From NCBI GenBank assembly GCA_019694795.1, contig JAIBBF010000017.1:1-57938 (forward strand): a stretch of 57,938 nucleotides of DNA, in the 5' to 3' direction. Below are positions 55,321 to 56,924 of this stretch, piece after piece; positions within the stretch are counted from its first letter, which is position 1, and the number at the start of each line of letters is the position of its first letter. A program made the translations under genes and the position numbers. Source of the stretch: Flavobacteriales bacterium (lineage in GTDB: Bacteria; Bacteroidota; Bacteroidia; Flavobacteriales_D; UBA2798). The notes beneath the pieces were generated by a model. It saw only the letters and a list, made by a program, of their open reading frames with translations. It was not told the DNA's origin and ran no database searches.

Positions 55321-55338
55321 TTTGGAGATATCTCCAAA
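55321..55338. promoter_or_regulatory. 18-bp perfect palindrome overlapping the -33 box
   Basis: TTTGGAGATATCTCCAAA is its own reverse complement and includes the -33 TTTG. A dimeric repressor site is one explanation; none of the genes here can be linked to it. Confidence 0.6.
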
Positions 55339-55351
55339 GCCATTATATTTG
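55321..55351 (+). promoter_or_regulatory. Strong TTTG-N19-TAnnTTTG promoter of the tRNA-Val repeat locus
   Basis: TTTG at 55321-55324 and TATATTTG at 55344-55351 are exactly 19 bases apart, a full match to the Bacteroidota housekeeping promoter. The predicted start is near 55358, just before the first tRNA-like segment. Confidence 0.75.
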
Positions 55352-55364
55352 CACTCCCAATTCA

Positions 55365-55808
55365 GGGAGTTTAGTCTCTATTGGGCAATTGAAATATTGA
55401 AAAATAAAATGGGAGTTTAGCTCAGTCCTGACGCTTACGGTCAGGATCCCATAAGGGACTGGTTCCCGAGAGCATTGAAATAATAAATGGGAGTTTAGCT
55501 CAGTCCTGACGCTTACGGTCAGGATCCCATAAGGGACTGGTTCCTGAGAGCATTGAAATAATAAATGGGAGTTTAGCTCAGTCCTGACGCTTACGGTCAG
55601 GATCCCATAAGGGACTGGTTCCTGAGAGCATTGAAATATTGAAAAATAAAATGGGAGTTTAGCTCAGTCCTGACGCTTACGGTCAGGATCCCATAAGGGA
55701 CTGGTTCCTGAGAGCATTGAAATAATAAATGGGAGTTTAGCTCAGTCCTGACGCTTACGGTCAGGATCCCATAAGGGACTGGTTCCTGAGAGCATTGAAA
55801 TAATAAAT
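55365..55808 (+). repeat. Tandem array of tRNA-Val 5'-fragment repeats (one partial plus five units)
   Basis: Complete units start at 55411, 55489, 55567, 55653 and 55731; the real tRNA follows at 55809. Four periods are 78 bp and one (third unit) is 86 bp. Each unit is GGGAGTTTAGCTCAG (identical to tRNA bases 1-15), a 33-base insert beginning TCCTGACGCTTACGGTCAGG, then CTGGTTC-CTG-AGAGCAT (the tRNA D-loop and D-stem 3' side with three extra bases) and an A/T spacer. The insert folds as TCCTGAC/GTCAGGA and TCCC/GGGA. Units are essentially identical apart from CCCGAG in the first. A shortened degenerate leader unit lies at 55365-55410. No unit has an anticodon or T arm, so none is a tRNA. Confidence 0.9.
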
Positions 55809-55883
55809 GGGAGTTTAGCTCAGCTGGTTCAGAGCATCTGCCTTACAAGCAGAGGGTCGGCGGTTCGAATCCGTCAACTCCCA
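55809..55883 (+). tRNA. tRNA-Val (anticodon TAC)
   Basis: 75 nt. Acceptor GGGAGTT pairs perfectly with AACTCCC; D arm GCTC...GAGC; anticodon stem TCTGC/GCAGA with loop CTTACAA (anticodon TAC, valine GTA/GTG); T arm GGCGG-TTCGAAT-CCGTC; discriminator A. CCA is not encoded (ACTG follows). It is the last and only complete member of the repeat array and is followed by a terminator. Confidence 0.95.
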
Positions 55884-55900
55884 CTGAAAATCAATAAGTT

Positions 55901-55928
55901 AAAAGGAGTGCGAAAGTGCTCCTTTTTT
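55901..55928 (+). terminator. Terminator after tRNA-Val
   Basis: AAAAGGAG-TGCGAAAGTG-CTCC followed by TTTTTT: a short stem, which can extend by weaker pairs in the loop, and a T tract 18 bp after the tRNA. Confidence 0.75.
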
Positions 55929-56699: not shown

Positions 56700-56924
56700 T
56701 CATCATATTGCATATTTTTTTGTGTATTATGGCTGAGTGCAACCGAACGATTCAGAAGAAAAATACAGAGGAATTATCAGAGGAACAATCAGAGGAACAA
56801 AAAGAACAGATCAAAGAGTTTCACTGGTTGAGATGAACAAACAGAACCAACATAAAAACAAAAAGTTTCCCTAAAGAAACTCTTGCCGACCGAGAACACC
56901 TCAATCCAAATTCGTTAATAAAAC

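Follow-up and report, generated by a model that had tools for sequence, protein, structure and literature searches.

Hairpin-plugged 5' copies of tRNA-Val in a Flavobacteriales genome: a possible scar of GIY-YIG homing at tRNA genes

Few sequences in a genome are as conserved as tRNA genes, which are also favourite targets of mobile DNA. In the 57,938-nt stretch of DNA analysed here (the window), an intact tRNA-Val gene is preceded by a row of partial copies of its own 5' end, each interrupted in the D-loop. This raises the question of what produced the copies and whether they may be kept for a use of their own. Our preferred answer, to which we assign a probability of about 0.45, is that the array is the tandemly amplified scar of homing by a GIY-YIG endonuclease that targets tRNA genes. 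The interpretation offered by an earlier, sequence-only reading of the same DNA is partly supported.

Anatomy of the array in front of tRNA-Val

The array is real. Five units of 78 or 86 bp, starting at 55411, 55489, 55567, 55653 and 55731 and spanning 55411-55808, follow a degenerate sixth unit and lead into the intact tRNA-Val(TAC) at 55809-55884, all on the forward strand. Each of the five opens with GGGAGTTTAGCTCAG, which is identical to bases 1-15 of tRNA-Val (15/15). The D-loop is then interrupted by two perfect hairpins, hairpin 1 of 21 nt (TCCTGAC-GCTTACG-GTCAGGA, 7-bp stem) and hairpin 2 of 12 nt (TCCC-ATAA-GGGA, 4-bp stem), which together make up the 33-base insert. The tRNA sequence resumes as CTGGTTC(CTG or CCG)AGAGCAT, where the D-loop remainder has one triplet (CTG or CCG) more than tRNA-Val, and an AU-rich spacer closes the unit. 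In unit 1 (55411-55488) the tRNA-Val segment occupies 55411-55425, hairpin 1 55426-55446 and hairpin 2 55447-55458, followed by the CCG triplet and a short spacer. The same layout is found in unit 2 (55489-55566; CTG triplet, short spacer), unit 3 (55567-55652; long spacer, 86 bp), unit 4 (55653-55730; short spacer) and unit 5 (55731-55808; short spacer), the last of which abuts the real tRNA. The degenerate sixth unit (55365-55410, forward strand) keeps GGGAGTTTAG and a long spacer and has lost the hairpins. This anatomy, read directly and recovered by TRF with an array score of 761-865, far above chance, bears out the earlier description of near-identical units that carry the first 15 bases of tRNA-Val, an insert in the D-arm and a return to the D-loop. 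TRF also reports a higher-order period of 242 bp (99% match) that corresponds to three units. Since short and long spacers alternate, it is a three-unit block that is repeated, as is typical of arrays that grow by recombination.

A Bacteroidota-type promoter, read directly, lies in front of the array on the forward strand (55321-55351), with a -33 TTTG (55321-55324), a 19-nt spacer and a -7 TATATTTG (55344-55351). A scan with an E. coli-type consensus did not see it and was uninformative here. A hairpin at the expected transcript start (ACTCCC-AATTCA-GGGAGT, 55353-55370, forward strand) is identical in the ortholog of a same-genus genome, G001, and its 3' arm forms the start of the first, degenerate tRNA copy. 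The -7 part of the promoter is kept in the same ortholog; a perfect 18-bp palindrome, TTTGGAGATATCTCCAAA (55321-55338), which overlaps the -33 box, is absent there. Behind the tRNA, a terminator-like stem-loop with a T-run is found at 55901-55926 of the forward strand, where 0.8 such sites would be expected by chance in the stretch scanned. With a promoter before the array and a terminator-like stem after tRNA-Val, a single precursor RNA would be expected. The claim of one transcription unit therefore holds as far as the layout can tell. Further downstream, four 12-bp tandem repeats (TCAGAGGAACAA) occupy 56752-56800.

At the gathering score Rfam gives no match in the window except tRNA-Val. 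A tRNA intron, group I or other, was considered and rejected, as Rfam matches nothing but the tRNA, the 33-nt insert sits in truncated copies and the intact tRNA is separate.

In E. coli, the distal repeats of the tyrT locus are 178 bp long, carry the 3' end of tRNA-Tyr and yield the rtT RNA. The parallel drawn to this locus in the sequence-only reading is sound, in that both are tandem partial copies of one end of a tRNA that adjoin that tRNA and, judging from the layout, lie in its transcription unit. The Val array, however, repeats the 5' end rather than the 3' end, lies upstream and has its D-loop interrupted by hairpins. Downstream repeats with a tRNA 3' end are not found at tRNA-Val but at other tRNAs of the group, and some of these, such as those at tRNA-Asn of the closed genome G004, are closely similar to tyrT in layout. 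Also unlike tyrT, similar units occur at many tRNAs in many genera, some of them with GIY-YIG ORFs. The array also resembles the product of integrative elements that enter and restore tRNA genes, in that a partial tRNA copy stands beside a complete one; it differs in that neither an integrase gene nor an att-type core is seen at the array, the 78-bp units are without genes and the breakpoints lie at loop apices. A paper on Prevotella repeats mentions insertion at tRNAs only for conjugative and mobilisable transposons.

Several contigs end at arrays of this kind, and some of the tRNA genes concerned contain NN gaps in the G001 assembly, as might be expected if the repeats were produced by assembly. 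On the other hand, the closed single-contig genomes G004 and G021 carry comparable partial-copy arrays at other tRNAs, and an independently assembled relative (L009/L123) has an orthologous Val array of two units. An artefact is thus largely refuted and very unlikely; five is the unit count in the present assembly.

Conservation between two species

The orthologous array in G001 has two units and lies beside the same chloride-channel-like gene as in the window. The Val and Ala loci of G001 match UBA2798, a Flavobacteriales metagenome assembly. The window genome (G000) and G001 share orthologous units at three tRNAs: Val, Ala(GGC) and Arg(TCT). Identity between the two species reaches 100% in the tRNA-like part and 95% in hairpin 1 at both Val and Ala, compared with 72% at the DNA level for the gene adjoining the Val array; for the Arg units it is 80% and 75%. 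Sequence in front of the promoter, behind the terminator and in the Ala spacer is no more similar than shuffled sequence, and the spacers at Val and Arg show moderate similarity (0.74 and 0.70). Differences in the hairpin stems are compensatory, as in TCCTGAC/GTCAGGA versus TCCAGAC/GTCTGGA, and none of 59 cells is unpaired. That both species keep the same stem letter at a given locus points to shared descent and to constraint, at two loci. The pairing, but not obviously the sequence, could be preserved if palindromes were repaired by template switching.

These observations are the strength of the main rival of the scar model, in which the units would be a selected leader RNA, that is, a functional part of the tRNA precursor that is either released as structured small RNAs or influences processing, antitermination or tRNA-Val output in cis. 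When the whole precursor is folded, hairpin 1 is predicted at a probability of about 1 in every unit, and a boxA-like GTTCTTT is present in spacers at several loci. The same prediction does not favour hairpin 2 within the array. However, the number of copies and the spacers are free to vary, template-switch mutation is another way in which palindromes can stay perfect, and the distribution is patchy: at least 4 of 399 genomes of the order match a model, R1, with 14 candidates scored per genome, so that this figure is a lower bound, and 2 of 395 genomes of the phylum match a strict pattern. The copies are also predicted to pair little with the tRNA 3' half, at probabilities of at most 0.12 for their strands compared with about 0.84 for the acceptor of the real tRNA. 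Simple sequestration would not be favoured by such values, nor would a decoy role in which the units compete for the tRNA 3' half. The conserved hairpins leave genuine scope for a selected leader RNA, which we nevertheless consider less likely than not.

At tRNA-Asp of G001 (L103, 1322-1470), about 70 nt, among them a boxA-like GTTCTTTAAAA, lie in the loop of hairpin 1, so that leader sequence is found inside a plug.

Partial copies at other tRNA genes

When about 85,000 genomes were scanned for TAGCTCAG with the hairpin 1 stem behind it, four sites came up, and at each of them a plugged 5' copy precedes a real tRNA. Two are in UBA2798, one is in Fluviicola (Arg) and one is at tRNA-Met of a bacterium whose gene content looks like Patescibacteria. 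Model R1 added tRNA-Phe of G009, with hairpins of other sequence, and the strict pattern added tRNA-Ala of G773, where two tandem units are plugged at the same nucleotide. Two scans of IMG/VR for carriage by phages gave no matches. The expectation that relatives would carry similar arrays is confirmed, at Val, Ala, Arg, Asp, Leu, Phe and Met tRNAs.

We also collected the tRNA loci of six genomes, two of them closed (G004 and G021), and compared each tRNA with its own flanks. Upstream 5' copies were found at 4 of 36 tRNAs in G000, 4 of 17 in G001, 2 of 35 in G004, 1 of 27 in G009, 0 of 29 in G021 and 1 of 20 in G217; the corresponding numbers for downstream 3' copies are 3, 2, 2, 2, 3 and 0. 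In all six genomes, with 1-7 tRNAs affected in each, the copies lie on the tRNA's own strand, 5' copies upstream and 3' copies downstream. Markov-shuffled controls gave no partial copies and the opposite strand gave one. The array is therefore recurrent rather than a one-off: partial copies flank many tRNAs in the order, including those of two closed genomes. At G004 tRNA-Asn, three identical 122-bp downstream 3' units are present in a closed genome.

The breakpoints cluster. By hand tally, 15 of the 17 catalogued loci with upstream 5' copies have the break in the D-loop (binomial 2e-13, loci taken as independent), and 10 of the 13 with downstream 3' copies have it in the T-loop (binomial 1e-7, loci again taken as independent). 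None of the recovered intact tRNAs has a plug. Many of the downstream 3' units share GAGAAGTTTATCCCGA..TCGGGA in the T-loop, a pattern that occurs in four genomes of the phylum and in none of the control, always at the 3' side of tRNA sequence.

The plugs could have come from independent palindromic elements of the REP, DHE or RPE type. Redundant tRNA copies would then be their insertion sites, and GIY-YIG enzymes would play no part. Like the double-hairpin and repetitive hairpin-forming elements of mitochondria (PMC2800124), the plugs consist of two short tandem hairpins, show complementary changes between copies and sit in gene regions tolerant of insertion. In G001 the core GACGCT..GGTC occurs 36 times compared with 10 for a reversed-pattern control, many of these occurrences being hairpins outside tRNA copies, and in one Val unit hairpin 1 has a further palindrome within its loop. 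In G000, however, the core is hardly dispersed (11 occurrences versus 9 in the control, 6 of the 11 in tRNA copies). Two adjacent perfect hairpins are present in the array, but dispersed copies of one family are seen only in G001. The mitochondrial elements form dispersed families (PMC2800124), whereas here it is one fixed nucleotide of partial tRNA copies that is plugged. This nucleotide stays constant while the hairpin sequences differ between genera (G009, G773 and the Leu copies), also unlike the mitochondrial elements, and one mobile family therefore does not explain them. Since a separate cause for the partial copies would still be required, we consider this explanation unlikely.

Dispersed palindromes of the form ATCCYGACGCT..GGTCRGGAT, some followed by CAGGCCGG or CAGGTCGG, were noted at L074-L077 and L087-L090; they are present in G001 and hardly in G000.

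Neutral local duplication, by slippage or unequal crossing-over, would account for the 242-bp higher-order repeat as ordinary array expansion, and template switching at the D- and T-arm dyads could make palindromes or keep them perfect. The position of the plugs at or near the apex of these dyads is consistent with this. What neutral duplication does not predict is a near-identical hairpin 1 in two species whose flanks cannot be aligned, nor the association with GIY-YIG genes described below, and we give it little credence.

Small GIY-YIG genes and the origin of the copies

Small GIY-YIG ORFs (PF01541) of 76-103 aa are encoded on the chromosomes of these bacteria. Their closest solved relatives are UPF0213 proteins, and NCBIfam names none of the small proteins above its cut-off. 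By our own count, 9 of the 11 matches in G000 and 8 of 14 in four other genomes lie at a tRNA, a tmRNA or a tRNA remnant, and none of nine UvrC or long GIY-YIG loci has a clear tRNA neighbour. Several small ORFs, four in G004 for example, likewise have no such neighbour. In three genera small GIY-YIG ORFs adjoin tmRNA (L285, L282 and L263, in G004, G217 and G001, respectively), which extends the association to another gene with a T-arm. Copies of 3' ends with hairpins in the T-loop or the anticodon arm flank GIY-YIG ORFs at Phe, Leu(CAA), Ala, Arg(CCG), Pro(GGG) and Lys, and at L266 a GIY-YIG ORF precedes an Arg copy that has a D-loop hairpin and lies downstream of its tRNA.

At the tRNA-Ala locus of G002 (L268), an upstream tRNA-Ala copy with an anticodon-arm hairpin is broken exactly at the T-loop GGTTC and is followed by a GIY-YIG ORF, a boxA-like sequence and the intact tRNA-Ala. 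The upstream Ala copy of G000 ends at the same GGTTC nucleotide with no ORF behind it, as if the ORF had been lost. At the Ala locus of G000 a GIY-YIG reading frame ends inside the next tRNA copy.

The phage T4/T6 protein SegB is a free-standing GIY-YIG homing endonuclease (PMC13096335). T6 SegB cuts within tRNA genes and prefers RAWTSGAAC, found at 23 of 83 mapped sites and so a preference rather than a requirement; it drives the formation of tandem repeats that contain tRNA-Tyr and a truncated segB, for which recombination genes are needed, and the 5' end of the tRNA shares sequence with the 3' end of segB (PMC13096335). On our reading, this motif (reverse complement GTTCSAWTY) would correspond to the tRNA T-loop. 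GTTCSAWTY is present in the T-loop of 71 of 161 collected intact tRNAs, among them the tRNA-Val of the window, where GTTCGAATC (55863) matches it. The loci described here thus resemble SegB loci in that GIY-YIG genes adjoin tRNA genes, tandem repeats involve tRNA segments, the preferred motif fits the T-loop and, at the G000 Ala locus, the tRNA 5' end resembles the 3' end of the nuclease gene. There are also differences. Each SegB repeat keeps a complete tRNA-Tyr and no hairpin plugs have been reported, whereas the Val units are plugged partial copies, and SegB is a phage enzyme, whereas the putative nucleases here are chromosomal proteins of 76-103 aa. A GIY-YIG gene is present at other partial-copy loci but not at the Val array; none was found on the contig of the window (C17), at the G001 Val ortholog or adjoining upstream D-loop arrays as a class.

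In the scar model a tRNA gene would be broken in one of its two universal loops, at CAG^YTGG in the D-loop or TTC^GA in the T-loop, and after repair an intact tRNA would be flanked by a partial copy, upstream if this is a 5' copy and downstream if it is a 3' copy. One or two hairpins would plug the breakpoint of the partial copy, which would then have no unbroken loop sequence, and the plugs may in this way remove the target of the nuclease. The units would multiply by unequal recombination, here as the 242-bp block of three units, and remain part of the tRNA precursor transcript. The most likely agents are the small stand-alone GIY-YIG endonucleases at tRNA and tmRNA genes, which are SegB-like in catalytic domain and location and would cut at tRNA loops. 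This account is well supported for the T-loop copies and extends to D-loop arrays such as that at tRNA-Val only by analogy. As no nuclease gene adjoins the D-loop arrays, we infer the nuclease step there, and the enzymes may have acted from another locus or have since been lost. GIY-YIG breakage of universal loops is the simplest account that covers breakpoints, plugs and neighbours together; the origin of the hairpins, the sparing of the intact tRNA and the conservation of hairpin 1 between species are left unexplained by it. Among the roles proposed in the sequence-only reading, a selfish repeat comes nearest to this evidence, but its form is a different one, with breaks in the D- and T-loops and a tRNA-associated GIY-YIG family adjoining. 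One could go further and regard hairpin-plugged tRNA halves as a distinct, recurrent tRNA-gene satellite (5' D-loop-plugged upstream, 3' T-loop-plugged downstream). They would be the products of a chromosomal GIY-YIG system whose targets are the universal loops of tRNA and tmRNA genes, and some lineages would have recruited them as selected leader RNAs; we put this forward as a tentative and rather doubtful proposal.

A nuclease family that breaks tRNAs at universal loops would represent parasitism of essential RNA genes without death of the host, and may also be the source of isolated curiosities such as the tyrT repeats. The small GIY-YIG proteins and their tRNA or tmRNA neighbours provide a defined enzyme and substrate, and a new leader-RNA role for tRNA fragments could be tested directly on the conserved hairpins. 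In the open-access papers searched, which covered partial tRNA copies, palindromes in tRNA genes and GIY-YIG proteins at bacterial tRNA genes, neither these arrays nor hairpin-plugged tRNA copies are described. The ingredients (tRNA-end repeats, GIY-YIG homing and double hairpins) are known; their combination is new.

Three further arrangements were noted in the course of the survey. At L084 (contig C74 of G000), where no tRNA was recognised, about ten copies of a repeat of about 70 bp (CAGAGCGGAGCGTGGAATCGGAT...) stand directly before a GIY-YIG ORF; with a match of only 13 nt, these were not counted as Leu 5' copies. The downstream 3' copies at L178 (1680-1941), L139, L219 and L250-L253 share a T-loop GAGAAGTTYA and a hairpin and often have their own terminator. 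Finally, L145 (1550-2640) contains a chain of four downstream tRNA-Ala copies with hairpins in the D-, anticodon and T-arms; full and truncated GIY-YIG ORFs lie between the copies, and the last codons of the ORF read into a tRNA copy.
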